Shown here: piece by piece, positions 3,512 through 42,149 of the stretch
Layout: the number at the start of each line of letters is the position of its first letter
Numbering within the stretch: position 1 is the first letter of the stretch
Virus record (IMG/VR): IMGVR_UViG_3300016461_000040
Span: 1-44,052 of that record
Source: a virus
DNA length: 44,052 bases
Strand: one strand, 5' to 3'
Translations under genes and position numbers: made by a program
Notes under the pieces: model-generated
Database searches by the model: none
Told to the model about the DNA's origin: nothing
What the model saw: the letters and a program-made list of their open reading frames with translations, nothing else

Positions 3512-4389
3512 CACAGGCCTCCCTTCGGCGCCTCGATGCCCGGCCGCATGCTGGTGCTCTTGCCTGTCACGTTGCGATGCCAGTTCAGCAGGGCGGCACT
3601 GCTGCTCACGATGTGGTGCAGACCTTTCTCATGGTCACCGGACCGGAGCGCTGCGAGAGCTTTTCCGCTGAGATAGCCCAACAGCCAGAACCAATCCTCC
3701 GGCTGCTTGCCGGCGTCGTGTGCGGCCGACCAGCGCTCGACCTGGTGTGCAGCCTCCAGCTCGGTGGCGGCCATCCAGTCCTTGGTGTGCGGAGTGTTGA
3801 TAAGAGCCCGCAAGCGCTGCAGTTCATCGCGTTCGGCATTTGTCAGCGTGGGCTCGGTGGCCCCTACGCTCGCCGCTGCATAAACCTTCATGCCGACAGA
3901 GATTGGAGGGGCATCCGCGGCCCACTTGATCACTTGCAAGCCATCTTCGCCCGTCAGTGAGGTGGAGACGACTACCTCGCCGATGGGGCGTTCCGGTGCA
4001 GATGTGGCCTCGAGCCAGTCGCGAGCGTCATCCCAGGCTTGGCACAGACCGATGTAACCGCGAGTGCCGCGCAGGCCTCCGAGTCTCGCGAGAGCCGCCT
4101 CGTTCCTGAAGACGCGCACGGCCTCGACAAGGGCCTGCAAGAGTACCCACGCCTGAGTGATGGAGCCGGGTTGAACTGCTGGGGCCGGGAGGCGCTCCTT
4201 GTCCGCGAGATCCTCGTCGACTTCGGTGGGGCCCAGGTATTGCGCTCCCTCATCGGGGTAGTCCGTCAGCCAGGCATAGAGGCCTGGGGAAAGACCGGGT
4301 GACTCCGCTGCGATTGTCACCTCCGCGTCCTGGCCACCGAAGAAGGCCAGCAGCGCCTCTGCCTGCCTGAGCGTGATCTTTGTGGTCAT
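3511..4389 (-). CDS. Hypothetical early phage protein with a C-terminal helical region
   Basis: This 292-residue protein begins MTTKITLRQAEALLAFFGG. Its C-terminal third (from about residue 195) reads LTNAERDELQRLRALI followed by EAAHQVERWSAAHDAGKQP and EDWFWLLGYLSGKALAA, ending in HHIVSSSAALLNWHR. That region resembles one I associate with phage early proteins, possibly MazG-like nucleotide-pool helices, but I cannot confirm the family. The ATG overlaps the stop of the ParB-like gene (ATGA). Confidence 0.6.
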   Translation of the reverse strand: MTTKITLRQAEALLAFFGGQDAEVTIAAESPGLSPGLYAWLTDYPDEGAQYLGPTEVDEDLADKERLPAPAVQPGSITQAWVLLQALVEAVRVFRNEAALARLGGLRGTRGYIGLCQAWDDARDWLEATSAPERPIGEVVVSTSLTGEDGLQVIKWAADAPPISVGMKVYAAASVGATEPTLTNAERDELQRLRALINTPHTKDWMAATELEAAHQVERWSAAHDAGKQPEDWFWLLGYLSGKALAALRSGDHEKGLHHIVSSSAALLNWHRNVTGKSTSMRPGIEAPKGGL

Positions 4390-6743
4390 GCCAGCACCTC
4401 GAGGCAGTTGTTCTCGAAGTGGGCGAAGGCACCGACGATGTCTCCTTTGTCGAGCGGTGGGAACCTGACGCCCCAGCCATCCTGATCGCACGTCTCCACC
4501 GTGCCGCTCCGCCAGAGCAGCTTGTCCTGGCCAGGAGCGATGCCGGTGCGAAGGATGCGCACCTGGTCGCCGATCGTCGGCAGGGCCGCGTAAGGCTCGA
4601 GGTGGTCAGCTTCGACGACCAGGAGCTCGTGTCTACGCTCGCCGTGCTTCATGTGGACCCGGCCGTCGTCGCCGAGGCCGAACACACGTCCGACACGGCC
4701 GATGGATTTAAGGAACTTGCCACCCGGCCCCTTGCTGCCGGCCTTCACCTTGACCAGTTGGCCGATGCTGAAAGTAGGCGCGGGCGCGGCAGGTGCCGCG
4801 CCTTTCTCTTCGTTTGCGCCGATAGGCGCCTGGCTCTGGCTGTTCTTCTCGTCCTCGTGCGCCTGCAGCGCATCGGCGATATCACGCTGGGCCTGCTCCT
4901 TCGAGATCTTCTTCGCGCGTGGTGCTTGCGCCGCAGGCGGGGCGGTCGATTTTTTTGCCTTCTGCCCCTTCGCGGGCTTCGGCGCGGTCTTCTCCGCTTG
5001 CTTGGCCTGGGCTTCAGTCTCGGCCGCGCGCTCCTCGCTCTCGATCTCGCGCTTGGCCTCGGCCTTGACCTCGGCGAGGTCGACCTTCGTCATGTGCAGA
5101 ATCTCGTGCAGCACGCTGCGAGGGCCTTGGCGCTTTGCATTCTCGGGAGACCATGCGCGATAGCGCTCGGCGGCCAGGTGCAGCATGAAGCGCAGCAGCA
5201 GGCGAGGGACCTCCTCGTCGGGTGTTCTCGCGATGAGCTTGCTGATGTCGCCCTTTTTCTCGCCGAGGACGGCCTGCAGCGCCTGGGACGCTTCCCAGTT
5301 CTCGCCATCTTCATCGATCATCCATGCACGCAGAAGGTCCGGCGTGCCGGCGGCGGGCTCGCGCTGTAGGTACTCGTCAGCGAGCTTCAGCGCAGTGGCC
5401 TGCCAGCGGACCTCGAACTCGGGGCGTTCTTCGATGGGAAGCTGGGCCTGCTCGGCCTTGTTCTTGGCCTCCGCAGCCGCTTCCTTCTGCTTGCGTTTGG
5501 CAGACCTCGTGAGGTTGTTCGTGCGAACGATCTTCTTGACCTGGTCGATCGGCAGGACTTCGACGATGTCGCCTGTCTCGGGGTGTTTCGCCAGCACTGG
5601 CTCGGGGCAGTGTTTGCCGAGCGCTTTGCGCAGGGTCGGCCCGTCGATTTCGAGGCTGTAGTCCGGATAGCGGTCCAGCAGGTAGTGTCCGCGCAGCCAT
5701 TCGTTCGAATCGGCCTTGAGCATGCCCGCCGCTTGCTCCTGGTCGATGACTTTCTTGCCTTCGCGCTGGGCTTCTTCGAACCGCCGCTCGGCCGTCGTCT
5801 TCTCCTTGTCTTGGTAGCACGTCGGATCGGTGCAGATGTCTGCACTCTCGACGTCGGCAAAGAGGTCCGGGTTTGCGCCGGTACGCTTGGGGCAGTCTGC
5901 GCATGCGCCGGCGCTTTCGCACAGGGTCGCGTCCTTCACATCGAAGGGCGCACGCTTCAGCGGCAGCATGACGTTGGTCTGCAGCCACTCCTGGAATTCC
6001 TTGACGTTGAGAGCCCGGCCGTAGTTGTCGGAGCCGGTGGCCTGGCCGAGGGCCTTGATCTGCAGCTTGTCGACCGGAATGCGGGCGATCAACAGCGCCT
6101 TGCTGGCGTCGATCTGGCCGCGTCGAAACGCTTCTCGAGCGGCGGGGTTGAGGTCCAGTAGCTTGAGGCGGGCGTAGACATACTCGCGACTCTTGCCGAC
6201 TGCAGCGCCGAGCTCTCTCTTCGGAATGTCGGTCTCGGTCACCAGCCGATGGAAGCCTTCGGCCTCCTCAAGCTCGCTTAGATCGACGCGCTGGAGGTTT
6301 TCGATCAGCTGGATCTTGAGGACCTCTGCGTCCGTCAGACGGCGAGCGACTGCCGGGACCTTCGACATGCCGGCCAGTTTGCTGGCACGCCAGCGCCGTT
6401 CGCCTGAGACGAGCTCGTGTGTCTCGCGCTGGGTGCGGCCCAGCTTGCGGCTGGTTTCGTCCAGCCGCGAGGCCGGCAGCGGGCGCACCAGGATCGGCTG
6501 ATGGATGCCGCCCGCTCTGATGCTCTCTGCCAGCTCCGCGAGGTCTTCATCGTCGAAGACGGTACGCGGGTTCGTGAGGCTGGCGACGACCGCGTCGACG
6601 TCCAGGAGCAGGAGCTCGCCTGCATCTGTTTGCGCTGCCGCGAGTGCTGCGGCTTCAACCGTGGATTCTTGGGACATGGAGATCTCCGCGGCTGCGGCCG
6701 CATCGGTGGGGGTGGATGAAAAATGGGCGCCGGTCAGGTTCAT
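4386..6743 (-). CDS. Large ParB-like DNA-binding protein
   Basis: This 785-residue protein has a ParB/Spo0J N-terminal domain: NPRTVFDDEDLAELAESI and IHQPILVRP at residues 58-88, GERRWRASKLAG at 114-125, and QLIENLQRVDLSELEEAEGF at 145-164. A helix-turn-helix follows at about 172-195 (PKRELGAAVGKSREYVYARL). Cysteines 275, 281, 284, 304 and 309 form a possible zinc or Fe-S site. A charged Ala/Lys-rich linker leads to a C-terminal KOW/SH3-like region. ParB proteins bind palindromic centromere sites; no ParA is seen here. AGGAG lies six bases before ATG 6743, which overlaps the reverse transcriptase stop (ATGA). It may bind the 18-bp palindromes listed below (inference). Confidence 0.85.
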   Translation of the reverse strand: MNLTGAHFSSTPTDAAAAAEISMSQESTVEAAALAAAQTDAGELLLLDVDAVVASLTNPRTVFDDEDLAELAESIRAGGIHQPILVRPLPASRLDETSRKLGRTQRETHELVSGERRWRASKLAGMSKVPAVARRLTDAEVLKIQLIENLQRVDLSELEEAEGFHRLVTETDIPKRELGAAVGKSREYVYARLKLLDLNPAAREAFRRGQIDASKALLIARIPVDKLQIKALGQATGSDNYGRALNVKEFQEWLQTNVMLPLKRAPFDVKDATLCESAGACADCPKRTGANPDLFADVESADICTDPTCYQDKEKTTAERRFEEAQREGKKVIDQEQAAGMLKADSNEWLRGHYLLDRYPDYSLEIDGPTLRKALGKHCPEPVLAKHPETGDIVEVLPIDQVKKIVRTNNLTRSAKRKQKEAAAEAKNKAEQAQLPIEERPEFEVRWQATALKLADEYLQREPAAGTPDLLRAWMIDEDGENWEASQALQAVLGEKKGDISKLIARTPDEEVPRLLLRFMLHLAAERYRAWSPENAKRQGPRSVLHEILHMTKVDLAEVKAEAKREIESEERAAETEAQAKQAEKTAPKPAKGQKAKKSTAPPAAQAPRAKKISKEQAQRDIADALQAHEDEKNSQSQAPIGANEEKGAAPAAPAPTFSIGQLVKVKAGSKGPGGKFLKSIGRVGRVFGLGDDGRVHMKHGERRHELLVVEADHLEPYAALPTIGDQVRILRTGIAPGQDKLLWRSGTVETCDQDGWGVRFPPLDKGDIVGAFAHFENNCLEVLA

Positions 6744-8098
6744 GTTTTTCTCCTGAAGGCTCGGGTCAGGTCGCCGTCGACTGCGTGGCCACGCTTAAGC
6801 AGCGCACGCGCGATGGCGGCTTGTTCCTTGTGACTGGCGCCGGCCTGGCGCACCAGGCCGAAATAGCTGTTGCCGGTCGTGTAGACGTCTGCAGGCGCTG
6901 CCGCCTCGATCCGGCGCAGTGCGGAGCGCAGGGTGCGCGGCCTGGTGGTGCGACGCCATGGCTTGATCAGGTGGCCCACGAAGTCGATGCCGCGCGCCAC
7001 GGGCTGCAGGATGGTCTTGCTCGGGTTGAGCTGCAGGTGGAGTTCCTGGAGCTTCGCCTCGATGCGCTCGCGTGCCTGGTTGAGCCACTGCGGATCCGGA
7101 TGCACCATCACGAAGTCGTCGACGTAGCGGACGTAGTGCGGTGCCCGCAGCTGGTGCTTCGCGAACTGGTCGAGGTCATCGAGCAGCACGTTCGCAAAGA
7201 ACTGTGAGCTCAAGTTGCCGATCGGCAAGCCGTGGCCGTCCGGTGCATTGAACAGGCTCTTGTGTGGTGGCACGAGGGCGAGTTCGTGCGGCCGAGACCG
7301 GACCTCGACCTCTTGCCGTGGGTCGTGCATCAGCAGGACCTCGGCCAGCGATAGCCACCATGGTTCCGAGACTCGGCGCGCGAGCTGCTCGCGCAGGACC
7401 ATCTTGTCGATGCTCACGAAGAAGTTCGCAAGATCGCATTTCAGGTAGTACGCCGGCCGGCTCCAGTTGCGCGTGACGCTGCGCACCTGGTGCTCGAGGC
7501 GCCGGGCCGCGTACAGCGTGCCGCGGCCCGGGATGCAGGCGCAGCTGTCGGCAGTGAAGGCGGCATGGAAGCGCGGCGCGATGCGGTTGTACAGGAGGTG
7601 ATGGACGATGCGGTCGGGGAACCGCGCCGCCCAGACTTCACGAGGGCGCGGCCGTGTGATTACGAAGCAGATCGAGCGGCCGGGCCGATAGCGGCCGCTG
7701 GCCAGCTCGTCGTGCAGTTGGTAGAGATTGCTCTCGGCCATCGCCTCGAAGGCCTGCGCGCTGGCGCTGTTCCGCTTTGTGCGCCGGCAGTCGAGATAGG
7801 CGTCGATGAGCAGGGGGAACAGGTTGGAATCTGCGGACGGCAACGGCGCAACCCTCGTAGCTCTTGTGGTTGTTGTTCTGGTTGCCGTTGTTGAAGTTGC
7901 AATTCCAGGCGTAGGAGGCGCGCCCGTCGCGCTATGTAGGCCGTCCCGCCGAAGGCCGAGGCCGATCAGTGGGGAGGCTGCACCGGACGCGGCGCGCGCA
8001 GGCGTGCCCGTATCCGTCTCGTGCATGTCGGTGGACTTGTGGTCCAGCGGCGCGACCAGATTCACTATGCGCACGGGCGTGAGGGCCTTGACCGTCAT
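6740..8098 (-). CDS. DGR reverse transcriptase
   Basis: The RT-type core includes SGRYRPGRS and the catalytic Asp in LKCDLANFFVSID (D about residue 222). The DGR hallmark GLPIGNLSSQ is at about 291-300, YVRYVDDFVMVH carries the second catalytic pair (YVDD about 325-328), and LNPSKTILQ and IDFVGHL follow. Group II introns and retroviruses have other residues in place of IGNLSSQ. The conserved N-terminus of DGR RTs (NLFPLLIDAYLDCRRTKR) begins only near 7825. ATG 8098 overlaps the avd stop (ATGA) and stays open through the TR, giving 452 residues. A TTG at 7843 inside the TR, with GAGGG upstream, would give 367. The stop overlaps the ParB-like start. Confidence 0.93.
   Translation of the reverse strand: MTVKALTPVRIVNLVAPLDHKSTDMHETDTGTPARAASGAASPLIGLGLRRDGLHSATGAPPTPGIATSTTATRTTTTRATRVAPLPSADSNLFPLLIDAYLDCRRTKRNSASAQAFEAMAESNLYQLHDELASGRYRPGRSICFVITRPRPREVWAARFPDRIVHHLLYNRIAPRFHAAFTADSCACIPGRGTLYAARRLEHQVRSVTRNWSRPAYYLKCDLANFFVSIDKMVLREQLARRVSEPWWLSLAEVLLMHDPRQEVEVRSRPHELALVPPHKSLFNAPDGHGLPIGNLSSQFFANVLLDDLDQFAKHQLRAPHYVRYVDDFVMVHPDPQWLNQARERIEAKLQELHLQLNPSKTILQPVARGIDFVGHLIKPWRRTTRPRTLRSALRRIEAAAPADVYTTGNSYFGLVRQAGASHKEQAAIARALLKRGHAVDGDLTRAFRRKT
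7833..7920 (-). repeat. DGR template repeat (TR)
   Basis: This is an 88-bp non-mutated copy of the VRs. In the VR frame it reads ASYAWNCNFNNGNQNNNHKS followed by YEGCAVAVR. Eight asparagine codons (one AAT, seven AAC) mark the mutable sites; AAC codons let adenine mutagenesis reach many amino acids. The last 35-40 bases are identical in TR and both VRs and would hold the initiation-of-mutagenic-homing part. The TR sits between avd and the RT core and is also crossed by the long RT reading frame in a different phase. Confidence 0.95.
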
Positions 8099-8466
8099 GC
8101 TGCAGGCGCCCTGTTCTTGGCGTTCTTGAGCCACCCGCCGGCCTGCTTTCCGATACTGCCCAGCAACTCGATGGACTCGGCCCAAAGCTTCGGAGAGAGG
8201 TGCTTGCGATTGAACGTCACGCGCAGCATCACCGTCACGGCGCGCTGCTTCGTGAGCACCTCCTCGAGGTAGGCCGCGCGCGCATGCATGTCGTGCTGAG
8301 CGGCGTTGGCGAGGGCCATGAGCTCGAGCAGGTCGACACAGTGCTGCGTGATCTTTTCGCCCAGGATGCGCTTGAGGCTGCGCGGCATCTGCTCCTGCAC
8401 GCTCACTGCGAGATCGAGCAGCCGCATGCCGGTGCGGTGGATGGGGGTATCGGAGTGCATTGCCAT
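8095..8466 (-). CDS. avd: Avd-like DGR accessory protein
   Basis: This 123-residue basic, all-helical protein fits the Avd four-helix bundle in size, composition and position. Avd forms a pentamer that binds the RT and DGR RNA and is needed for mutagenic retrohoming in BPP-1. Helices are visible around residues 15-35 (LLDLAVSVQEQMPRSLKRIL), 38-60, 60-90 and 95-115, with many Lys/Arg. It lies between the VR1 gene and the TR as in BPP-1, and its stop overlaps an ATG in the RT frame (ATGA). ATG 8466 is chosen; ATG 8460 is an alternative. Confidence 0.85.
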   Translation of the reverse strand: MAMHSDTPIHRTGMRLLDLAVSVQEQMPRSLKRILGEKITQHCVDLLELMALANAAQHDMHARAAYLEEVLTKQRAVTVMLRVTFNRKHLSPKLWAESIELLGSIGKQAGGWLKNAKNRAPAA

Positions 8467-8474
8467 GGGTGGGC

Positions 8475-8963
8475 TCAGCTCAAAAGGATTGAAGGACCGA
8501 AGGGTTCAAACCCTGCGGACGGCAACGGCGCAACCCTCGTAGCTCTTGTGGGTGCTGAGCTGGTTGCCGTGGAGAAGTCGCAATACCAGGCGTAGGAGGC
8601 GTCCTCTTCATGTGCCTGGCTCGACCAGTGCCATGCGGCCTCGAGGTGAGGCTTGCAGTTCGCGAAGAGCAGCGCCTGTTCCTGGCGGTCCGGCAGGACG
8701 CCGCCGACTTCGGTCGCCCACTTCATGGCGTCGTCCCAGTTGAGACGCTCACTGGGGCGCGCCGCCATGAGGACCAGGTGGTGCTCGATCCGGCCGGTTT
8801 CGTCGAGCACGGCGCCGGCGTAGTGCTCACCGGCGCGCAGCTCGATGTGGGTCTCGGGCGTCGTGATGGTGGTCACGATCGCTTCCGCGCGGAGCTGCAG
8901 CTCCTTGATCATCTTGTCCAGCTCGGCCTGGCGGGCCTTGACGGCTTCGAGTGTGGTGGTCAT
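8475..8963 (-). CDS. DGR variable protein 1 (frameshifted in VR1)
   Basis: This 162-residue paralogue of the neighbouring variable protein shares an LNWDDAMKWATEVGGVLP-type motif, ALLFANCKP, WHW and ASYAW, a C-type-lectin/DUF1566-like end. It has an extra N-terminal coiled coil (TLEAVKARQAELDKMIKELQ) and no signal peptide or membrane segment. VR1 has lost one base relative to the TR, so the frame leaves SYAWYCDF and runs to PTRATRVAPLPSAG and a stop at 8475. Restoring the base would end the protein as AVAVRRV at 8506, directly after the VR, as expected for this family. The present C-terminus is probably non-native. Confidence 0.85.
   Translation of the reverse strand: MTTTLEAVKARQAELDKMIKELQLRAEAIVTTITTPETHIELRAGEHYAGAVLDETGRIEHHLVLMAARPSERLNWDDAMKWATEVGGVLPDRQEQALLFANCKPHLEAAWHWSSQAHEEDASYAWYCDFSTATSSAPTRATRVAPLPSAGFEPFGPSILLS
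8501..8514 (-). other. Small hairpin just 3' of VR1
   Basis: On the coding strand AGGGTTTGAACCCT follows the VR directly and can form a 5-6 bp stem. BPP-1 has a hairpin/cruciform just after VR that helps homing. VR2 has no equally clear hairpin, so the role is uncertain. Confidence 0.4.
8513..8601 (-). repeat. DGR variable repeat 1 (VR1)
   Basis: This 89-bp copy of the TR differs by eight substitutions, all at TR adenines on the coding strand, plus loss of one adenine in the second codon of the first AAC-AAC pair. Codon changes include AAT to TAT, AAC to GAC, AAC to CTC, AAC to AGC and AAC to ACC. The 3' part is identical to the TR. Confidence 0.93.
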
Positions 8964-8994
8964 TGATGGGCTTTCGGAGAAAAGGACTGAAGGA

Positions 8995-9393
8995 CTAAGC
9001 GGCGAGGGGAATCCGGCGGACGGCAACGGCGCAACCCTCGTAGCTCTTGTGGCTGCTGGTCTGGTAGCCGTGGCCGAAGTGGCAATGCCAGGCGTAGGAG
9101 GCGCCATCGGCTTCACAGGTCCAGTGCCAGCGAGGCGTGAGCTGCGGCTTCAGATTCGCGTAGAGGAGGGCGGCGACGGGGCGGGAGGGCAGTTCGCCGC
9201 CCTGTTCGGCGGCCCACGCCATCGCGGCTTTCCAATCTACGTCCTGGGCCTTGGCGGGCAACAGGACGACGGCGACATGCTTGCCGTCCGCTGTGCTGGT
9301 GAGGCCGGCGAAAGCGCCTCCCTCGAGTTGGTCGCCGATGGGCGGCAGCGAGGCGAGGGAAACGATGGGCGTGGTTGCGGATTCAGCGGGCAC
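8995..9393 (-). CDS. DGR variable protein 2
   Basis: This 132-residue protein has a variable C-terminus. The scaffold contains VDWKAAMAWAAEQGGELPSR, AALLYANLKP and PRWHWTCEADGASYAW, then the diversified stretch HCHFGHGYQTSSHK and the constant YEGCAVAVRR. The pattern resembles DUF1566/Lcl-type C-type-lectin folds, the fold class used by DGR targets. There is no signal peptide, membrane segment or virion-anchoring domain, so a cytoplasmic product is likely. GTG 9393 is five bases after AAAGGAG and overlaps the preceding gene. Its binding partner is unknown. Confidence 0.88.
   Translation of the reverse strand: MPAESATTPIVSLASLPPIGDQLEGGAFAGLTSTADGKHVAVVLLPAKAQDVDWKAAMAWAAEQGGELPSRPVAALLYANLKPQLTPRWHWTCEADGASYAWHCHFGHGYQTSSHKSYEGCAVAVRRIPLAA
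9016..9103 (-). repeat. DGR variable repeat 2 (VR2)
   Basis: This 88-bp copy has the same length as the TR, with nine substitutions, all at adenines of the TR coding strand. The resulting changes are N to H (three times), N to G, Y and T, and N to S (twice). No substitution falls on C, G or T. The frame is intact and the stop follows seven codons after the repeat. Confidence 0.95.
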
Positions 9394-11791: not shown

Positions 11792-11883
11792 AGCGCCCCG
11801 CCTTCTTTGAGGGTCCACACGATCAGCACGGCGAGCACGAGCTCGACGGCCAGGAAGATGAGGAAGAGGGTGCGCGGCTTCAT
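11788..11883 (-). CDS. Micro membrane protein (31 aa), paralogue of 12544-12639
   Basis: Begins MKPRTLFLIFLAVELVLAVL and ends GGAL: one membrane helix. Its length, its M-x-PRT start and its Gly-Gly-x-Leu end match the gene at 12544-12639, which suggests duplication. It has four-base overlaps at both ends. Confidence 0.55.
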   Translation of the reverse strand: MKPRTLFLIFLAVELVLAVLIVWTLKEGGAL

Positions 11884-12155
11884 GCGTGCAGCCCTCCCTC
11901 GATGGCCGGCACGATGACCAACTGGCCGCCCATGGTCAGACCCGGCATGCCGCCGGCGTCGTCGGCCGCCTGGTTGTGCATCTCGATGGCCTGGTCATGC
12001 CAGAAGTCAGCCCTGTCCTCTGCACCGGCCAGGCGGCGCTCTGTCTCTTCGAGGCGCGCGGCCAGGTCGGCGGCAAGCACGCGCAGGTGCTCGAGCTCCC
12101 ACCGTTCAAAGCGTCGCTGCAGGCTCGCGGTCGCTCGCGTGTGCTGCGCGCTCAC
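11880..12155 (-). CDS. Hypothetical coiled-coil protein (91 aa)
   Basis: GTG 12155 overlaps the preceding stop (GTGA). Residues about 10-60 form a charged coiled coil (FERWELEHLRVLAADLAARL, then EETERRLAGAEDRADFW), followed by a glycine/methionine-containing tail. It could be a small structural or adaptor protein; no family is recognised. Confidence 0.55.
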   Translation of the reverse strand: MSAQHTRATASLQRRFERWELEHLRVLAADLAARLEETERRLAGAEDRADFWHDQAIEMHNQAADDAGGMPGLTMGGQLVIVPAIEGGLHA

Positions 12156-12547
12156 GATGCGTACCTCCAGTTCGGCGCATGGTGATAGCGTTGACCGCCG
12201 CAGATGCGAGCCCATCTGTTCCAGATGCCTGGGCCGGCGCCCTTCGCCACCACAAAGCGGCAGTCGCCGGGATACGAGGGCCAGCCCTCTTTGGGCGTGT
12301 TTTCTCTAGCCGGCGTGGCCTGTGCACCCGTGATGCGGTTGGCTGGACCTTGAGCGATGGCTGCCCGCGCCGCCGCCCATGCAGCCGGCAAGCGTCGTTC
12401 CAGCTCGGCCTTCATTTCGGCCGCTTCGGCTACTGCGGCCGGCTCTCGCCTGATCGCGCAGTCTCGGCGCTGCTTGCGGCGCGAGTAGCTGGCCTGCAGT
12501 TCTTGCAGAAACAGCAGTTCGATGAGCGCTACACGCTCGGCACTCAC
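12152..12547 (-). CDS. Hypothetical early phage protein (131 aa)
   Basis: A helical basic N-terminus (VALIELLFLQELQASYSRRK) leads to a C-terminal part rich in Trp, Gly and Tyr (GWPSYPGDCRFVVAKGAGPG). GTG 12547 overlaps the preceding stop in GTGA and is the best start. No function is recognised. Confidence 0.55.
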   Translation of the reverse strand: MSAERVALIELLFLQELQASYSRRKQRRDCAIRREPAAVAEAAEMKAELERRLPAAWAAARAAIAQGPANRITGAQATPARENTPKEGWPSYPGDCRFVVAKGAGPGIWNRWARICGGQRYHHAPNWRYAS

Positions 12548-13248: not shown

Positions 13249-13278
13249 ATTCTACAAATGTAGAAATGCTAGTGTCAA
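13249..13278 (-). promoter_or_regulatory. Leftward early promoter (pL-like)
   Basis: On the minus strand a perfect TTGACA (13278-13273), an 18-bp spacer and TAGAAT (13254-13249) form a strong sigma-70 promoter for the operon that contains the DGR. Both hexamers are overlapped by repressor operators. Confidence 0.85.
13250..13265. promoter_or_regulatory. Repressor operator OL1
   Basis: TTCTACAAATGTAGAA fits the palindrome TTCTACANNTGTAGAA and covers the -10 box of the leftward promoter. Confidence 0.8.
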
Positions 13279-13289
13279 CAACTGTAGAA
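13274..13289. promoter_or_regulatory. Repressor operator OL2
   Basis: GTCAACAACTGTAGAA is the same 16-bp operator with two changes in the left arm. It covers the -35 box of the leftward promoter. Confidence 0.7.
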
Positions 13290-13373: not shown

Positions 13374-13796
13374 TTAACCGGTCGTACCGGTCTTGCGGCT
13401 TTTTCGAGGCGAGCGATTCGCGTCGATCAGGCCTCTGACGTATGCCTCTACGAGCCCGTGGTCGGCGTCGCTCAGGCCGCGCCACTCATGAGGCGTGATG
13501 CGTTCGAACGGCCATTGGGTGATTGGCGACGGGCTATTGCTTGGTTTGGTCGGGGAAGGAGCGTTCGGGGTAGCGCCAGCGAGCAACGCGGGTAGATGGT
13601 CTACGCTCTCGTCGAGTAGTTGCTCCAGAGAAAGACCGAGTCCGCGGGCCAAGGCGACTCCAAACTGAGAGCGGCGGCTGTCGCGTTGCTCGATTGCGCT
13701 AATGGTGCCTACATCGACTTGAGACTCTTCGGATAGGCGTTCCAACGTCCAGCCGAGGCCAGAGCGGTAGTGCCGAACCTGTTTGCCTAATGCCAT
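13374..13796 (-). CDS. CI-like XRE-family phage repressor
   Basis: This 140-residue protein has an N-terminal lambda-repressor-type helix-turn-helix (GKQVRHYRSGLGWTLERLSE, then SQVDVGTISAIEQR, residues about 4-40). A proline-rich linker and a short C-terminal helical part follow. There is no LexA-type Ser/Lys peptidase domain, so it is probably not cleaved in a RecA-dependent way. It faces the Cro-like gene across an operator region and lies beside the leftward promoter. I infer that it maintains lysogeny by binding the TTCTACANNTGTAGAA sites. Confidence 0.85.
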   Translation of the reverse strand: MALGKQVRHYRSGLGWTLERLSEESQVDVGTISAIEQRDSRRSQFGVALARGLGLSLEQLLDESVDHLPALLAGATPNAPSPTKPSNSPSPITQWPFERITPHEWRGLSDADHGLVEAYVRGLIDANRSPRKSRKTGTTG

Positions 13797-13845: not shown

Positions 13846-13852
13846 CTTGCAC

Positions 13853-13868
13853 TTCTACAACTGTAGAA
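13853..13868. promoter_or_regulatory. Repressor/Cro operator OR
   Basis: TTCTACAACTGTAGAA is palindromic apart from its two central bases and ends on the first base of the ATG at 13868. Confidence 0.8.
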
Positions 13869-14185
13869 TGTCGCGCATGGATCAATCTCAAGTCGTAGAT
13901 CAGGATGCGGCCGAGCTTCCTGTAGTTGCTCGAGCCATCGACGCCGCTGGTGGCCCAGCAGTTCTGGCGCGGCGGCTCGGCGTCACTACGCAGGCCGTGT
14001 GCTTCTGGCGTGATGGCCATCGCGCCGTGCCGGAGAAGCATGGGGCCGAAATCGAAAGCGCGTGCAATCGCGCCTACACCCGAAAGGACCTCTGGCCGGA
14101 CACCTGGCAACGCATCTGGCCTGAACTGGTCAAGGGCGACGCTACGGCTGTCGAGAGTGAAGGTGCCCGACATGAGGCAGCCTGA
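13868..14185 (+). CDS. Cro/YdaS-like regulator
   Basis: The helix-turn-helix IDAAGGPAVLARRLGVTTQA, then VCFWRDGHRAVPEKHG, is typical of the YdaS/Cro family, including the FWRDG recognition-helix pattern and a C-terminal region with Trp. It is probably the lytic-switch regulator opposing the CI-like repressor. ATG 13868 touches the operator; ATG 13877 is an alternative, and neither has a clear Shine-Dalgarno sequence. It is the first gene of the rightward early operon. Confidence 0.8.
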   Translation: MSRMDQSQVVDQDAAELPVVARAIDAAGGPAVLARRLGVTTQAVCFWRDGHRAVPEKHGAEIESACNRAYTRKDLWPDTWQRIWPELVKGDATAVESEGARHEAA

Positions 14186-15164: not shown

Positions 15165-17840
15165 ATGGCCGACCAGTCGAAGAAGCTGCCTGATATCAAT
15201 TTCGGGGCGCTGGGTAGGGCGCTGCTCGCTCGTGCGGCGGATCTCGTAGCGCAATGGTTGCCTGGCGGCACGCGTAGAGGCGACGAATACGTCTGTGGGT
15301 CGCTCGCTGGCGGCGCTGGCACCAGCTGCTCTGTCAACCTGACGACCGGGGCCTGGGCCGATTTCGCTGGCGATGATCGCGATAAAGGCGGTGACCTCAT
15401 CAGCCTCTATGCCGCGATCCATATGCTGGACAACGGCCAGGCCGCGCTGCAGCTTGCACGGTCGGAGGGGTTGGAGGACGTGGCCGGCATCGTGTCGCGA
15501 AGGGGCGGTGATGCACCTCCGCCGCCGCCCCCACGCCCGCCAGCACCGCCGGCGTCGCGACCGAAGGAGTCGGAGGGCTGGACCACAGTCATCCCCGTGC
15601 CAGCCATCGCGCCACAGCCGACGTTCTGGCACTTCGAGCGCAAGGTGGAGGACATCCTTCACAAGGCGGCGTACTACGTCGGGGAGCATCTGTTGGGCTA
15701 CGTCGTTCGTTTCCGCACGAGCGACGGTGGCAAGGAAACGCTGCCCTATACCTGGTGCACGAGCGCGCGTGATGGTGGGTCCAAATGGCACTGGCGCCAG
15801 TGGGACGTGCCTCGGCCGTTGTACTACCCTGGCCGACAGCACCCCGACGGGCGCACAGTCATTTTGGTCGAGGGCGAGATCAAGGCCGAAGTACTGCAGG
15901 CGCTGCTCGAGCGGCACGCTCCGGGTGTGTACTGCGTCGTCAGCTGGCCGGGTGGCAGCAAGGCCTGGAAGAAGGCCTCATGGGCATATCTCAAGGGCTG
16001 CACGGTTTTGCTGTGGCCCGACTGTGATGCGAAGCGCGTGTTGCCCACGCCGAAGGAGCGCCAAGCCTGTGCCGATGACGCGGCGCTGGAAGAGCTCAAG
16101 GCCTCGAAGCCGCTCCTCCCTACTCGGAAGCAGCCGGGCATGTCGGCGATGTTGGGCATCGGCGTTCACTTGCGGGATGCGCACCAGGCGGCCGTTTCTA
16201 TGCTGCCGATTCCCGAGCCCGGCGAAGTGGAAGACGGGTGGGACTGCCGAGACGCGATTGAGGTCGACGGTTGGGACGGCACCCGCGTGCTCGAGTTCTT
16301 CGCGCGCGCGCAGCCATTGCCCGACCTGGTCGAGGACACGGCTTCGCCGGCATCCCCGCCGGTCGACGGAAAGCCGTCGGCTGGCGGGAATGCCGGCGGC
16401 GAATCGGATGCGCCGGACGAGGGCGAGGATGCCTTCCAGGGCTATCTCGACTTCATCTGCAAGCAGGCCAAGTGCAAGACGTGGGAGCTGGGCGTCAATC
16501 GCCACATGGTGATCGCAGCGCTGAGAAAGGCTCCAGCCCTGGCCGGCATCGTCGGGTACGACGACCTTCGCAGCACCCCGAGCACGCAGCGGCCGTGGCC
16601 TTGGCGCCAGGACGCCGCGCCGATGACCGATGCCGACGATCTTCGGCTCGGTGATTGGTTGACGCAAAAGTACAGGATCAAGGGGGCTTCGCGCGGGGCG
16701 CTGTCTGAGGCGATCGAAACTGTCGCCGACGAGAACCACTTCCACCCGTTTCGCGACTGGGTCCAGGCGCAGAAGTGGGACGAGAAGCCGCGCACCCGGA
16801 AGTGGCTGATCCATGTCCTCGGGCGAGACGTTGCAGCGCTGCCAGAGAAGGAGCGGATCTACCTCGAGATGGTCGGGCACTTCATCCTGCTGGGCCACGT
16901 GGCGCGCGTAATGCAGCCCGGGTGCAAGTTCGATTACTCGATCGTGCTCGAGGGCAAGACAGGCATGGGCAAGTCGACATTGCCGGAGACGCTGGTGGGC
17001 GAGGCCTTCTTCAGCGACACGCATTTCGACATCGGTGCAGGCAAGGATGGTTTCGAGCAGCTGAGCGGCATCATCGCCTACGAGCTTTCCGAGATGACGG
17101 CCTTTCGGCGGGCCGACAGCGAATCAGTGAAGCAGTTCTTCAGCACGCGGAAGGATCGATACCGCGGGGCGTACGGGCGGTACGTGACCGACCACCCGCG
17201 CCAATGCGTGATCTGGTGCACGACGAACAAGAGGCAGTACCTCTACGATTTGACCGGCAACCGCCGCTTCTGGCCCGTGTGGGTCTATCAGCCATTGAAC
17301 ATCGAATGGCTGCGAAAGTGGCGTGGGCAGCTCTTCGCCGAGGCCTTGGTCATGCTGCAGGCGGGTGAGCGCATCTTCCCGACGCACGAGGAGGAGCGGC
17401 TGTACTTCAAGCCTGAGCAGGAGAAGCGACTGGTGGAGACGTCGGTCCAGTCCAAGCTCTACGACCTGCTTACACGCGAGGGCGCTGCACGCACAGAGGG
17501 GCGCCTGACGAGCGAGCTCAGCCAGCACACAACTTTTGTGACCATCGCACAGATGACTGCTGCCCTGGGCGCTGACCCGGCGAAGTCGACGGCGCTGCTG
17601 GAGACGCAGGTCCGCGACTGGCTTGTCGAGAACGGATGGCAGCGCGCGCGCGCTGGCAAGCCTGCCGTGGCGGGAGGTTCGCGCCCTTGGGGATACGCGA
17701 GGCCGGATGTCTGGCCGCCGCTCGACGAGGATGAGCAGCCGCGGGCCGAAGGCCCGTCGGGCAACGATGACGATGAACGGGGAGGCCCGCCTGCACCGGC
17801 GGACGATCCCTATGGAGGCAGTGACGATGCGCCTTTCTGA
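15165..17840 (+). CDS. Phage primase-helicase (Toprim plus VapE/VirE-type ATPase)
   Basis: This 891-residue replication protein has an N-terminal region (residues about 43-90) resembling a CHC2-type primase start, with only part of the cysteines. A Toprim-like segment VILVEGEIKAEVLQALLE lies at about 231-248, and LLWPDCDAKR near 283 supplies the acidic DxD. The C-terminal half is a VapE/virulence-associated-E P-loop domain, with Walker A LEGKTGMGKST at about 595-605, IIAYELSEM near 637 and the conserved WCTTNKRQYL and GNRRFWPVWV. It probably primes and unwinds the phage genome. It is the main replication gene of the rightward operon. Confidence 0.88.
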   Translation: MADQSKKLPDINFGALGRALLARAADLVAQWLPGGTRRGDEYVCGSLAGGAGTSCSVNLTTGAWADFAGDDRDKGGDLISLYAAIHMLDNGQAALQLARSEGLEDVAGIVSRRGGDAPPPPPPRPPAPPASRPKESEGWTTVIPVPAIAPQPTFWHFERKVEDILHKAAYYVGEHLLGYVVRFRTSDGGKETLPYTWCTSARDGGSKWHWRQWDVPRPLYYPGRQHPDGRTVILVEGEIKAEVLQALLERHAPGVYCVVSWPGGSKAWKKASWAYLKGCTVLLWPDCDAKRVLPTPKERQACADDAALEELKASKPLLPTRKQPGMSAMLGIGVHLRDAHQAAVSMLPIPEPGEVEDGWDCRDAIEVDGWDGTRVLEFFARAQPLPDLVEDTASPASPPVDGKPSAGGNAGGESDAPDEGEDAFQGYLDFICKQAKCKTWELGVNRHMVIAALRKAPALAGIVGYDDLRSTPSTQRPWPWRQDAAPMTDADDLRLGDWLTQKYRIKGASRGALSEAIETVADENHFHPFRDWVQAQKWDEKPRTRKWLIHVLGRDVAALPEKERIYLEMVGHFILLGHVARVMQPGCKFDYSIVLEGKTGMGKSTLPETLVGEAFFSDTHFDIGAGKDGFEQLSGIIAYELSEMTAFRRADSESVKQFFSTRKDRYRGAYGRYVTDHPRQCVIWCTTNKRQYLYDLTGNRRFWPVWVYQPLNIEWLRKWRGQLFAEALVMLQAGERIFPTHEEERLYFKPEQEKRLVETSVQSKLYDLLTREGAARTEGRLTSELSQHTTFVTIAQMTAALGADPAKSTALLETQVRDWLVENGWQRARAGKPAVAGGSRPWGYARPDVWPPLDEDEQPRAEGPSGNDDDERGGPPAPADDPYGGSDDAPF

Positions 17841-17979
17841 CCAGCGATCGCTGTGGGCAACAGCGGAAAAGGTCATGGCGCAAGAAACACGCCGTGGGGC
17901 ACCAGCTGCGGGAGGCGAGATTCGCGGCAGCAGGTGCGCAGCGGTAGTGGGGAAGTCACTGCACGCGCCCATGACGTAG
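17827..17979 (+). CDS. Small hypothetical protein (50 aa)
   Basis: It overlaps the primase stop by 14 bases and encodes a small basic protein with no motif. It may be real because the operon commonly uses short overlaps, but support is weak. Confidence 0.3.
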   Translation: MRLSDQRSLWATAEKVMAQETRRGAPAAGGEIRGSRCAAVVGKSLHAPMT

Positions 17980-18256
17980 TCCAGCTCATTTGAGGCATGG
18001 CCGGAGGCTGGGCGTTCGCGCTGCACATGTGCGGTGACGTCCACGCGTCCAGCTTTTGCATGGAGCGCATGGTGCTGTCGGTTCCTGGGGAACTGCCAGT
18101 TCAGGCCGCTGCATTGTCTTTCGGGTCTCGCGCGCCTTCAATGCGGCGCGCAGGCAGGTGTGCACACGTCTGCACGCTCGCGCGCGGGGCCTTGTGTGTG
18201 TTTCTCTCAGTAGAAGTCAATGGACGGATGGACGTCCGAGGAATGGAGAGCCAGCA
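17980..18256. other. 277-bp gap carrying one palindrome
   Basis: I see no convincing gene here. An 87-codon frame starting at 17997 has no good ribosome binding site and odd composition. The only marked feature is the 18-bp palindrome site at 18159-18176. The 3' end carries the ribosome binding site for the next gene. Confidence 0.5.
18159..18176. repeat. 18-bp palindrome site (2 mismatches)
   Basis: TGTGCACACGTCTGCACG. It is the only copy in non-coding DNA. Confidence 0.7.
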
Positions 18257-18568
18257 ATGACCACAGAAAAGCAGGTTGATCCGGCGGTGCAGCAGATCCA
18301 GACGATCAAGCGCCAGATGCCGTCGGTCTATGCCGCGATTCAGGCGAAAGCGGCGGAGATTGGGGGGCGAGCCTACGAGCTTGTCCGTCGTGGCGCCCGA
18401 GGCGAAACGGGTTGCTTCTACGCGTGCGAGAAGGACATCAAGGTCGGCACGTATTGGCACGTCGCGCTGACGACCGACGTCGCGCTGCTGGTCGAGCGGT
18501 ACGGCATGTCGTTCGTCTGCATGTGGGGTGACCCGACGAAGCAGGAGGCACCCGATGGAGCGCGTTGA
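18257..18568 (+). CDS. Hypothetical early protein (103 aa)
   Basis: GGAG precedes ATG 18257. The N-terminus is helical (VQQIQTIKRQMPSVYAAIQA) and the C-terminus contains GCFYACEKDIKVGTYW and FVCMWGDP. It is not recognised. It overlaps the following gene by 14 bases. Confidence 0.6.
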   Translation: MTTEKQVDPAVQQIQTIKRQMPSVYAAIQAKAAEIGGRAYELVRRGARGETGCFYACEKDIKVGTYWHVALTTDVALLVERYGMSFVCMWGDPTKQEAPDGAR

Positions 18569-18881
18569 ATGGACGAGGTCGCGGAAGGCCGGACTTCGAA
18601 TGAAGCAGGCGGGGCGGCGGTTTGGGGCGGCGGGGCGCGCTCGGTTCTACGCTGACTGGGTATGGGGAACGAGCGACCGAGTGCGCCGCATACGTAGCAC
18701 TCTCAAGCCAATCGGTGGTTGGCTTATGCCGCGCCGGCGCCGAGGGCGCGCATTCCCCAGGCCAAGTCGACGCGATTTCTACCAGTTCCGCCTGGGGGCT
18801 TTCCGGTGCTATACGAATCCGCCTGCAAGCCTTGCGCTTCATCGCCTCAAGGCGCTGGGGTATGACGAGTTCCCGTTCTGA
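18555..18881 (+). CDS. Hypothetical basic protein (108 aa)
   Basis: AGGAGG lies eight bases before ATG 18555. The protein is very basic and aromatic (KQAGRRFGAAGRARFYADWV). A nucleic-acid-binding role is possible but unproven. It lies between the replication genes and the Q-like antiterminator. Confidence 0.55.
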   Translation: MERVEWTRSRKAGLRMKQAGRRFGAAGRARFYADWVWGTSDRVRRIRSTLKPIGGWLMPRRRRGRAFPRPSRRDFYQFRLGAFRCYTNPPASLALHRLKALGYDEFPF

Positions 18882-18893
18882 GCTCGCGACGAT

Positions 18894-19298
18894 ATGGCAC
18901 GGATTGAATGGGTGAAGGCTCGGCTGGAGAACTGGGCAATGTGGAAGGCGCGAGGGGAGGCCGGTGGGCTGGGCTGGTCATCGCAATCAGCGTTTCTCAA
19001 CGAGCCGGCCGGCGGATACCGGCAATCCCGGATACCGATCGACGAGGTCGACGCATCCGTGACCGACCAGGCCGTCGAGTCGCTTAAGGATGCGAGGCCG
19101 AGCCTGTATCAGGTCCTTCAATGTGTTCACGCGCGTGGCATTGGAGTCAAGGCGACGGCACGAGCGCTCGAGTGCAGCGAGTCGAATGTGAAGGCGCTGC
19201 TCGATGCGGCTGATCGGGTGCTTGGTGTCTGGTTCACCGAGCGTGCGGCCAGGCAGGCGGCCGCGCGCGGTGCCCTGAGAGGGGGTTTTACGACATGA
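18894..19298 (+). CDS. Q-like late antiterminator
   Basis: This 134-residue protein has the pattern of small phage antitermination (Q-like) proteins: RIEWVKARLENWAMWKARGE at the start, GGLGWSSQSAF, then ASVTDQAVESLKDARPSLYQ. It ends in a sigma-region-4-like helix-turn-helix (GVKATARALECSESNVKALL). Such proteins let RNA polymerase read through a terminator at the start of the late genes. A terminator is found directly downstream, just before the first late gene. Confidence 0.78.
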   Translation: MARIEWVKARLENWAMWKARGEAGGLGWSSQSAFLNEPAGGYRQSRIPIDEVDASVTDQAVESLKDARPSLYQVLQCVHARGIGVKATARALECSESNVKALLDAADRVLGVWFTERAARQAAARGALRGGFTT

Positions 19299-19344
19299 CT
19301 CTTTTTGGTAGATTTCTGGCATTCTGAGTGACACGCACAGCTGG

Positions 19345-19375
19345 ACCCGCTACGAGCAATCGCAGCGGGTTTTTT
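19345..19375 (+). terminator. Terminator at the head of the late operon (tR'-like)
   Basis: ACCCGCT and AGCGGGT form a 7-bp stem (inner CGA/TCG pairs extend it), followed by TTTTTT. It lies between the Q-like gene and the first late gene, the expected place for a Q-dependent control terminator. Confidence 0.7.
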
Positions 19376-19376
19376 C

Positions 19377-19940
19377 ATGCTCAAGATTGACATCGACACC
19401 AAGCAGTTCGCTGTCCTCGGGAGCAAGTTGGCGCGGTTCGGCGAGCAGACGCGGGCCAAGGCCATTGGGCGCGGACTCTCGAAGGTGATGAAGCAGGCGC
19501 AGACGCAGGCCAAGCGAGAGATCACGTCGGAGTACAACGTGAAGTCGGGCGAGGTGGGTAAGCGGCTCGGCGTCCGGCTCCAGGCCAAGGGCATGCAGGC
19601 GGTGTTGTTCGCGAAGGCTCGTGCGCGCAATCGCATTCCGTTGATGGAATTCGCGGCCAAGGCGACGAAGAAGAACGGCGTGAGGTTCAAGGTTCGCAAG
19701 ACTGCAGGCAGAGGGCAACTGCGGCATGCCTTCGTCGCCACGATGAAGAGCGGGAAGATGGGGGTCTTCATGCGAGTGCCTGGCACTCGCAAGATCAAGC
19801 AGGTTGTCGGCGTCGACATCACGCACATGTTTGCCGGCAAGCGCGTGCGGCCAGCGGTGATGAAGGCCATCAATGACAACGTGGCCCGCGTCGTGACCCA
19901 TGAAATGGAGTTCGAGCTCCGGCGCCTCGGGTTCCGGTGA
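19377..19940 (+). CDS. Minor tail protein Z-like (gpZ)
   Basis: This 187-residue basic protein shares the features of phage minor tail protein Z: FGEQTRAKAIGRGLSKVMKQ, the conserved AKREITSEYNVKSGEV, a beta-rich middle and the C-terminal NVARVVTHEMEFELRRLGF. In lambda gpZ acts in tail completion, and its gene lies between FII and U. Here it is displaced to the front of the late operon, before the terminase genes. ATG 19377 directly follows the terminator T-run and no Shine-Dalgarno sequence is visible. Confidence 0.78.
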   Translation: MLKIDIDTKQFAVLGSKLARFGEQTRAKAIGRGLSKVMKQAQTQAKREITSEYNVKSGEVGKRLGVRLQAKGMQAVLFAKARARNRIPLMEFAAKATKKNGVRFKVRKTAGRGQLRHAFVATMKSGKMGVFMRVPGTRKIKQVVGVDITHMFAGKRVRPAVMKAINDNVARVVTHEMEFELRRLGFR

Positions 19941-20091
19941 CGTTGCGCCCCCGCAACGTTGTGAAAAAGGTACTCCCGGACCCCCTCCGAGAACTGCGGG
20001 CACGAAAACGACCCGCGAAAAAAAAGAAATTATCTGTGGCGCCTGAAGCGGGTTTCGTTTCGGGCTGATGGCCTGTGGGCCGGAGGTTGTG

Positions 20092-20718
20092 ATGGAAGAA
20101 CTGCTCGGCACTGCGGACTGGCGCGTGTCGGTGGCGCAGCTCGCGTCGTTCCTTGAGCTCACCGAGCGGCGCGTGCAGCAGCTGGCCGCCGACAGCGTGA
20201 TCCCGCCGGGCGAGGATGGGCAGTATCTCTTCCTCGCGAGCGTGAAGGGCTACCTGCAGCTCATCCAGCAGGCCGCCGCCGGCAAGGCCGTTAGCGATGA
20301 GGCCAAGGAGAAGCAGCGTGCGCAGATCGACCTGCTGCAGACGCAACGGGACTCGGCGCAGCTGGTGCTCGACGAGAAGCGCGGTGCGCTGATCCCAGTC
20401 GAGTCGGTGCGCGCCGCGACAGTGAAGCTGGTGAAGGTGCTGACGGAAGGCGCTGACACGCTCCCCGACCTGCTCGAGCGTAAGAGCGGCATTCCCGGGA
20501 ATGTCGTCGTCGCCGTCGGCGAAGTCGTCGATCAATGGCGCACACGTCTTTTCAAGCGGGCGACGGAAGTCCTCGGAGGCGAAGTCATTGCGGACCAGCT
20601 CCCTGCCGTGCAGACGTCTGCAGATCGGCCCGACGAGCTCGAGGCGGAGCCGCCGAAGAAGAAGATCGGCCGGCCTCGCAAAAAGCGGGGCGATTCCTTC
20701 ACGCCGCCATTGCTCTGA
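20092..20718 (+). CDS. Terminase small subunit (Nu1-like)
   Basis: CGGAGG lies five bases before ATG 20092, giving 208 residues. The N-terminal MerR/Nu1-type winged helix (VSVAQLASFLELTERRVQQL) recognises cos or pac DNA in this family. A helical oligomerisation region follows, then a basic tail (PKKKIGRPRKKRG). The linker LPAVQTSADRP overlaps an 18-bp palindrome. It pairs with the GpA-type large subunit that follows. Confidence 0.82.
   Translation: MEELLGTADWRVSVAQLASFLELTERRVQQLAADSVIPPGEDGQYLFLASVKGYLQLIQQAAAGKAVSDEAKEKQRAQIDLLQTQRDSAQLVLDEKRGALIPVESVRAATVKLVKVLTEGADTLPDLLERKSGIPGNVVVAVGEVVDQWRTRLFKRATEVLGGEVIADQLPAVQTSADRPDELEAEPPKKKIGRPRKKRGDSFTPPLL
20607..20624. repeat. 18-bp palindrome site (2 mismatches)
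   Basis: CGTGCAGACGTCTGCAGA, in the linker codons of the small terminase gene. Confidence 0.7.
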
Positions 20719-20720
20719 AC

Positions 20721-40275: not shown

Positions 40276-41535
40276 ATGGACCTGATAACCCACATCCCGG
40301 GGATAGCGAACTCCGGGCTATTCACACCAGGTGCGAACACGCCTTCGCCTTGGAACGTGCCGATCACTGGCGCGGTCGACGGCAACAGCCCGGCGAACGC
40401 GACGCGCAACATGGCGGAGATCTACAACCGGGTTCTGTTTTCGCGTGCGGCTCTTATCGAGGCCTCGGGTCTGCCGATCGATAACAGCGACTGGGCCCAA
40501 CTCGTACATGCCTTTCGAACTAACGGGCTGATCTATGCGGCAGGCGCTGGCACGGCTAACGTGCAGACGGTTGCCTATACGCCGGCCATCAAAGCATTGG
40601 TTGATGGCATGGTGCTCTGGTTCAAGGCTGGGGCAACAAATACCGGGCCTATGACGCTGAATGTGAGCGGCCTGGGAGCGAAGGCTCTTGTCGGTGGTGC
40701 GCACGCGGCGCTGCAGGGCGGTGAAATTCTGGCCAATGGCAAGTGCCTGGTCGTGTGGAATGCGACATTGGACTCGTTCGTGTTGATCGAGTGCACGGGT
40801 GCGCCTCTGCAGGTTGCAAACGCGACGGCAGGGCAGCAGGCCGTCGCAATGAATCAGCTGTTTGGGGGGCTAAAGGGCATCGCTCGCTTTACGACAAGCT
40901 TTACCTTCGTTGTGCCGCCTGGCGTTACCACTCTGTGGGTTTCGGCGATCGCTGCCGGCGCTGGCGGCGGCTCCGGCGGTGGCGGTGATTCCACCTTCAC
41001 CGGGAGCGGCGGTGGCGGCGGTGGCGCAGGCCAATGGGTGCTTCGTCAGGCCTACACGGTGGTCCCTGGTCAGACCATCACCGGAACGATGGGGGCTGCG
41101 GGGTCGTCTGTTCCTGGTACAGGATCCAGTGGAACCGCTGGCCAGGCTGGCGGCAACTTCACGATCACAAATCTGAACGGTGCGACGTTGACTCTCACCG
41201 GAGGCACTGGTGGTGGCGGAGGCTCAAATGGCTCGACAAGCGCCGTGGCGGGACCTAACGGCGGCGCGGGGCAGGCGCCGGGCGCGAATGGTGGCGATGG
41301 CTACAAGCTGGCGGGAACTGGCGCGGGCGGGGCAGGGGGAAGCAGCCCGTTTGGGGGCGGAGGCCCAGGTGGGCGCGCAGCAAGCGGTGCAAACGGCCTT
41401 CCTGGCACAGCAGGCAATGGCTTTGGTGCTGGCGGCGGTGGTGGGGGCGGCTACTACAGCCAGGGTGCCGGCAGCACGCAGTCGGGAGGCACTGGCGCCG
41501 GTGGCGCCCCAGCCCTCGCAATCTTCGAATGGTGA
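40276..41535 (+). CDS. Glycine-rich tail fibre protein
   Basis: The N-terminal 90 of 419 residues form a fibre attachment region (HIPGIANSGLFTPGANTPSP). A beta region (PMTLNVSGLGAKALVGGAHA) follows, then about 160 residues dominated by glycine (GGGGGGAGQWVLRQAYTVVP), ending GAPALAIFEW. Glycine-rich tips of this kind recognise receptors in other phage fibres. No TR-like sequence is present. AAAGGAAA precedes the ATG. Confidence 0.88.
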   Translation: MDLITHIPGIANSGLFTPGANTPSPWNVPITGAVDGNSPANATRNMAEIYNRVLFSRAALIEASGLPIDNSDWAQLVHAFRTNGLIYAAGAGTANVQTVAYTPAIKALVDGMVLWFKAGATNTGPMTLNVSGLGAKALVGGAHAALQGGEILANGKCLVVWNATLDSFVLIECTGAPLQVANATAGQQAVAMNQLFGGLKGIARFTTSFTFVVPPGVTTLWVSAIAAGAGGGSGGGGDSTFTGSGGGGGGAGQWVLRQAYTVVPGQTITGTMGAAGSSVPGTGSSGTAGQAGGNFTITNLNGATLTLTGGTGGGGGSNGSTSAVAGPNGGAGQAPGANGGDGYKLAGTGAGGAGGSSPFGGGGPGGRAASGANGLPGTAGNGFGAGGGGGGGYYSQGAGSTQSGGTGAGGAPALAIFEW

Positions 41536-41549
41536 TGAAGGACATAGAA

Positions 41550-42149
41550 ATGAAATACGCAAACTTCCATCCGCTGACACGGGCGGTCGCTCGATTTCTT
41601 GACGATGCAGCCTTGGAGGCTGGTGGTTTGGATCCCGATGCGCTGCATCGGTTGCCCGACGACTTTGATCTGGACCAATCGCCGATCGGCTGGTTCGTTG
41701 TGCAGGGCGCGCTCACACGAGAGGTGCCGCATGCCAAGTTCGCGCTGTTCGATTTGGAAGGGAAAGCGGTCATGCAGTGGCAGGATCGGCTTGCCTTCCT
41801 ATACCTCGACGCCGATCCAGCTGCCTTGCTTGCGCTGCCTGGTGATTTCGATATCAACCAGTCGACCGATGGCTGGTATGTGATCGACGGCGCGCTGTCG
41901 CGTGTGGCGCCGCCGGCGCCGCCGCCGCTGCCGCCGACCGACGCACAGGTGTTGGCTCAGCGAGATGCGTTGTTGGCAGAGGCGACGTTGCGCATTGCGC
42001 CCCTGCAAGACGCGGTCGACCTGGACGAGGCTACCGTCGAGGAAGCCGCGCTGCTGAGGAAGTGGAAAAAGTACCGGGTCGACCTGAGCCGCATCGAGCA
42101 GCAGGCGGGCTTCCCGGCGGCGGTTCAGTGGCCGGCAATGCCAGCCTGA
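41550..42149 (+). CDS. Tail fibre assembly protein
   Basis: The C-terminal part (LRIAPLQDAVDLDEATVEEA, then ALLRKWKKYRVDLSRIEQQ) is the classical tail-fibre-assembly domain with its chaperone helix, followed by VQWPAMPA. The N-terminal half contains two related segments (LPDDFDLDQSPIGWFV and LPGDFDINQSTDGWYV). ATG 41550 with AAGGA seven bases upstream is chosen; ATG 41535 overlaps the fibre stop. 199 residues. Confidence 0.88.
   Translation: MKYANFHPLTRAVARFLDDAALEAGGLDPDALHRLPDDFDLDQSPIGWFVVQGALTREVPHAKFALFDLEGKAVMQWQDRLAFLYLDADPAALLALPGDFDINQSTDGWYVIDGALSRVAPPAPPPLPPTDAQVLAQRDALLAEATLRIAPLQDAVDLDEATVEEAALLRKWKKYRVDLSRIEQQAGFPAAVQWPAMPA

Follow-up and report, generated by a model that had tools for sequence, protein, structure and literature searches.

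A lineage of temperate phages appears to use a diversity-generating retroelement (DGR) to diversify two small cytosolic lectin-fold proteins from a repressor-controlled leftward operon, and the best reading of these proteins is that they are probably early, cytosolic, hypervariable binders with a C-type-lectin fold. The lineage is described from its relatives and from one virus, IMG/VR record IMGVR_UViG_3300016461_000040, the whole analysed stretch of which (44,052 nucleotides) is referred to below as the window.

The window carries a complete DGR on the minus strand, in which transcription runs from the short target through the long target, Avd and TR to the RT. The short target (8995..9393) is a C-type-lectin-like protein of 132 amino acids with homologues in ~40 relatives; its variable repeat, VR2 (9016..9104), is intact and differs from the template repeat by ten substitutions, all ten at TR adenines. 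The long target (8475..8963, with its ATG at 8963) has 162 amino acids as sequenced and an N-terminal helix, and is frameshifted within its variable repeat, VR1 (8515..8602), which shows one gap, a single nucleotide being absent between 8573 and 8574, and eight substitutions that again all fall at TR adenines. With 24 A in the 89 TR positions, the chance of such an adenine-only pattern (18/18 substitutions over the two repeats) is ~6e-11. The Avd accessory protein (8095..8466) matches PF22296 bAvd at 41.3 bits against a cut-off of 40 and phrog_3206 at 2.9e-22, and the TR itself (7833..7921), read in the VR frame, is ASYAWNCNFNNGNQNNNHKSYEGCAVAVR. The reverse transcriptase, taken as the longest ORF (6740..8185), overlaps the TR with its 5' part, matches RVT_1 (1.7e-13) and phrog_1423 (2.7e-110), and has the motifs IGNLSSQ and YVDD, in agreement with the published definition of a DGR-type RT as (L/I/V)GxxxSQ plus YxDD (PMC3521204). 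RT motifs, adenine-confined TR/VR changes and Avd are thus all found in the window. PADLOC related the RT to DRT families, which was put down to general RT similarity and not read as a sign of a defence system.

Each target is followed by a short DNA element on the minus strand, TCCTTCAATCCTT after VR1 (8484..8496) and TCCTTCAGTCCTT after VR2 (8982..8994), which is conserved at the target ends of relatives. Of 109 target ends, 80 have the motif with at most one mismatch, compared with 1 of 5450 shuffles, and within the window the element TCCTTCARTCCTT is found only behind the two targets. TR and VR have a common constant GC-rich end, a search for hairpins downstream of the VRs found no conserved stem, and the conserved post-VR motif is a direct repeat and not a hairpin. 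TCCTTCARTCCTT is a candidate target-recognition element.

Relatives were sought in IMG/VR, GTDB genomes and named phages, which gave ~50 distinct loci. The gene order of the cassette is kept in ~40 of them, the others being interrupted by contig ends or having no RT within the fetched stretch, and the ~40 carriers are phages and prophages, mostly of Burkholderiales. The named cellular hosts, which include Hydrogenophaga, Methylibium, Curvibacter, Limnohabitans and Pseudacidovorax, again belong mostly to this order, whilst the hosts of isolate carriers are Burkholderia, Shewanella and Pseudomonas; no long-target relative was found on plasmids at E 1e-5. In 22 of 52 loci a Cro homologue is encoded on the other strand ~7 kb from the cassette, and 17 have a VapE-type primase, so the early-arm position is conserved. 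Amongst the named phages, Burkholderia phage Magia and Shewanella phage vB_Sb_QDWS have a homologous RT (~58-63% identity over the core); like the window they encode Avd and, within the early arm, small lectin-fold targets, in their case three. The Magia record annotates its targets as possible DGR targets; otherwise the two records call these proteins only 'lectin fold domain protein' or 'hypothetical protein' and give no role. Third targets (L005 38802-39182, which is Magia gp57, and L006 44694-45131) lie near the start of the leftward operon, several kb from the cassette, and still match the TR outside its adenines. A protein with 50% identity to the short target, gp4 of EBPR siphovirus 1 (L009 1937-2350), was found in a record in which no DGR RT was detected, and is possibly a stand-alone, fixed version of the short target.

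Across all VRs of all loci, differences from the TR are seen at 887 of 2218 adenine sites and at 96 of 5526 other sites, so that adenines account for 887 of 983 mismatches. Sibling phages were compared over their single longest collinear match. L034 and L039, which come from different samples, are identical over 9141 nt outside the VRs and differ at 15 sites inside them; L034 is set apart from L038, which has the same TR, by these same 15 sites, of which 14 are at TR adenines and 14 in the long target. Such divergence is confined to L034 versus L038/L039, the VRs being identical in the other sibling pairs. These VR-confined differences show that the cassette has been in recent natural use and, in close relatives, that the DGR lineage is active in nature.

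The long target was modelled in its nearest relative (L022, pLDDT 86), where a helix at residues 6-26 is followed by a C-type-lectin-like domain. Foldseek matched this model to 8oks_B and 8q4e with a probability of 1.0, a TM of 0.51 by query length and E ~0.01, a moderate match; these nearest solved structures are the domains of Bdellovibrio Bd2740 (8oks) and of the Lcl C-terminus (8q4e), the fold search identifying the PDB hit 'HbP1' as the C-terminal domain of Legionella Lcl. The short target has no N-terminal helix, its VR loops are poorly modelled and its structural matches are weak only; with moderate confidence the model of the long target places a C-type-lectin fold in the VR domain. 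In structure and by profile the targets come closest to the Lcl C-terminal domain (PF07603) and Bd2740, with Lcl_C scores of 12.9-16.5 bits that lie below the curated cut-off of 34.9. Both neighbours are parts of surface or fibre-type proteins, whereas the targets have no export signals. Fibres of Bdellovibrio have been treated elsewhere (PMC10769870). The preliminary description of this DNA had held that the targets lack signal and membrane parts, and this is upheld: neither has a signal peptide-like start or a segment of membrane-span strength, the maximum 19-residue Kyte-Doolittle means being 1.07 and 0.85.

It had gone on to call the proteins variable intracellular binders, a reading that draws on the C-type-lectin fold, the absent export signals and the early position, and that we retain as the probable one. 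The target pair would then stay outside the virion and serve as interchangeable binders within a cell undergoing infection or induction, and as each phage lineage would hold one variant pair, the phage population as a whole would hold a library of binders. The likeliest partners would be host proteins that vary and that the phage encounters early in infection (defence sensors or effectors, nucleases, regulators); this is the least certain step and is offered tentatively. The partners suggested in the preliminary description, host defence, competing phages or host regulators, are likewise conjectural. An antibody-like counter-immunity, in which a dedicated DGR, apart from the tail DGR, keeps rewriting two early cytosolic binders and these neutralise host defence proteins that vary, is a rather doubtful proposal. 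Counting against the intracellular reading are the moderate fold matches (TM ~0.5) and the frameshift in the long target of the window. Early-operon genes also occasionally yield virion or injected proteins.

When the targets would be made can be judged from the switch region. A leftward early promoter found by promoter scan (13249..13278, minus strand; TTGACA-18-TAGAAT, 11/12 consensus) outranks the one other promoter-like site in 15 kb and is overlapped by the left operators (13251..13288), which consist of TTCTACAAATGTAGAA and a copy with one mismatch. The right operator TCTACAACTGTAGA lies at 13854..13867. Between the two operator clusters is the gene of a CI-like HTH repressor (13374..13796, minus strand; HTH_31 above cut-off, phrog_5823/phrog_3), and the rightward operon begins with a Cro/YdaS-like regulator (13847..14185, plus strand; PF15943 2.7e-15, P22_Cro 4e-5). 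The palindrome TTCTACAnnTGTAGAA is perfect at 13251 and 13854 and has one mismatch at 13275; away from the switch region it has only weak matches, within 3 mismatches. No terminator-like site was found on the minus strand from the first leftward gene to the DGR. The operator-covered promoter and the uninterrupted path from it place the DGR in a lambda-like leftward early operon, in agreement with the early operon of the preliminary description, and on this sequence evidence the operon is predicted to be silent in the lysogen and expressed early upon infection or induction. A tyrosine integrase (PF00589) was not found in the window phage and is present in 25 of 37 related records; its absence may reflect an incomplete contig or other means of persistence.

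This control bears on the possibility that the targets instead work during lysogeny, made from an internal promoter, as cytosolic sensors or blockers of competing phages in a form of superinfection immunity. Cytoplasmic DGR-varied C-type-lectin sensors have been proposed in cellular conflict systems, including loci with a short and a long target (PMC10907252), and DGR-based immunity has been proposed as well (PMC10053308). Such a role is nevertheless unlikely here, as the nearest strong promoter is covered by operators and the operon should therefore be off in the lysogen, with internal promoters judged by a consensus scan only, and as the neighbouring proteins scanned have no effector or adapter domains. 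Amongst the proteins scanned, no partner, effector or defence-linked domain adjoins the cassette.

The genes around the cassette would fit another role, in which the targets act on early functions of the phage itself (replication, recombination or partition proteins), with variation adjusting their contact with divergent host replication factors. Directly behind the RT is a ParB-domain protein (4386..6743, minus strand; PF02195 and PF17762) whose start overlaps the RT stop, and a direct ParB search found a homologue in 22 loci, mostly at the RT end and often overlapping it. Recombination genes are present in the same arm of Magia, QDWS and Haboob. Upstream in the operon lies a stand-alone early coiled-coil protein (11880..12215, minus strand; phrog_6525) with homologues that are fused to DGR-target domains in L047 (7406-8038) and L069 (7363-8133), the target domain being found once at each end; these fusions link the targets to early intracellular functions and count for the main, intracellular reading as well. 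However, the ParB gene is not universal, its place being taken in several phages by cytosine methyltransferase-like or other genes, and binding to such proteins is conjecture, so that we regard a role in the phage's own functions as distinctly unlikely.

The intracellular reading also has to be weighed against the tail. The targets could be virion accessories, separate adhesin tips attached non-covalently to fibre or baseplate, like proteins of the gp38 type, and merely encoded afar; adhesins often have no anchors of their own. According to a large survey, the receptor-binding module of phage DGRs is usually a C-type-lectin VR protein (PMC8144416). The fibre of the window (40276..41535, plus strand; phrog_863 2.5e-28, also phrog_12796), which is followed by a fibre assembly protein (41529..42149, plus strand), lies ~31 kb from the DGR and on the opposite strand, and contains no VR or TR-like copy. 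A scan of the window with the TR, adenines ignored, found no third copy anywhere, each half-repeat having at least 10 non-A mismatches elsewhere. Distance, strand and the absence of a VR in the fibre therefore stand as they were first described.

The same targets are, moreover, carried with tails of very different kinds. Amongst 37 records of carriers a sheath was found in 3, baseplate J in 5, a TipJ-type protein (PF13550) in 9 (7 above cut-off) and a T7-like connector in 1, so that the cassette co-occurs with contractile, long non-contractile and podovirus tails, and in each of the 15 marker-bearing contigs the DGR and the tail genes are on opposite strands. A protein that docks on one tail would be unlikely to move with so little change among such different tails.

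Two phages hold, in addition to the early DGR, a second and unrelated one in the tail module. G020 (39257 bp, contractile tail) has it immediately downstream of its baseplate genes, on the minus strand, with RT2 at 17618-18937, Avd at 18979-19401, TR at 18800-18947 and VR at 19407-19554; this VR ends a 351-aa target that matches phrog_11262 'tail protein' (1.4e-35), with 12/12 differences at TR adenines. In G016 (46977 bp) it lies on the plus strand directly after the tail genes and consists of a 455-aa target (19180-20547), Avd and RT (21257-22276), the early DGR being on the minus strand at ~30.7-33 kb. The second cassettes correspond to L074 17618-19600 and L075 1-853 (G020 17618-20453) and to L076 5181-8277 (G016 19180-22276). 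By its predicted genes each of these viruses thus has two DGRs, one for the tail module and one for the early pair. With the early promoter under repressor control, these observations make a place in the virion very unlikely, and they lend good support to the preliminary description's central statement, that the DGR targets are small early proteins and not tail fibres: operon position, repressor-controlled promoter and the several tail types all speak for it, as do the opposite strands (15/15) and the separate tail-linked DGR of two phages.

The deletion in VR1 puts the 162-aa product out of frame from 8573/8574, so that it ends ...RATRVAPLPSAGFEPFGPSILLS, whereas the long target of intact relatives ends ...KSYEGCAVAVRRV; the conserved last segment of the domain is missing from the window product. 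Intact homologues have 150-153 amino acids and the unframeshifted window protein would have ~150, so that of the two lengths first given for the targets 132 is correct and 162 is that of a frameshifted product. The frameshift may be genuine, giving a null or altered allele, or may stem from a sequencing error, and new retrohoming from the intact TR could put VR1 back in frame. A VR frameshift was suspected at first in the short targets of L028 and L068 as well, and could not be traced to the VR. That the cassette is a decaying relic in the window phage, with a broken long target and a functionless remainder, as the frameshift and the relatives that hold targets with no RT in the fetched stretch might suggest, is the most improbable reading of all, given that RT, Avd, TR and short target are all intact, that the next retrohoming can rewrite the broken VR and that VRs have recently been rewritten in relatives.

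Phage DGRs have been assigned mainly to attachment proteins (PMC10743442, PMC7981956), and in the large survey the phage-only DGR clades are likewise tied mainly to host attachment (PMC8144416). Multi-VR DGRs of Burkholderia and Ralstonia were already listed in 2012, without a reading as early proteins (PMC3521204), and in the literature searched, which covered few subscription papers, phage DGRs aimed at small early proteins are undescribed. If the reading of the targets as intracellular binders is true, phages also turn targeted mutagenesis on something inside the cell, by means of a widespread early-protein cassette, and the dual-DGR phages together with cultured carriers (Magia, QDWS and the Limnohabitans and Pseudacidovorax prophages) make this directly testable.

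The cellular DGRs of Thiohalocapsa PB-PSB1 (PMC10907252) resemble the window in having predicted cytoplasmic DGR-varied lectin proteins, with a short lectin-only and a longer target at some loci. Cellular DGR conflict systems differ in that they contain NTPase, adapter and peptidase genes, none of which was found in the subset of proteins scanned next to the phage cassette. With the tropism-switching DGR of Bordetella phage BPP-1 and its target Mtd the window has in common an SQ-type RT motif, Avd, a TR, a C-terminal VR in a C-type-lectin-type fold and adenine-specific changes. The cis element adjoining the VR of BPP-1 comprises the IMH and a hairpin/cruciform, whereas the post-VR motif of the window is a direct repeat. 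In DGRs of the BPP-1 type it is a tail or receptor-binding gene in the late module that contains the VR, whereas the window targets lie in the leftward early arm; BPP-1 varies a tail-tip protein, and the window varies two small proteins of the early operon.
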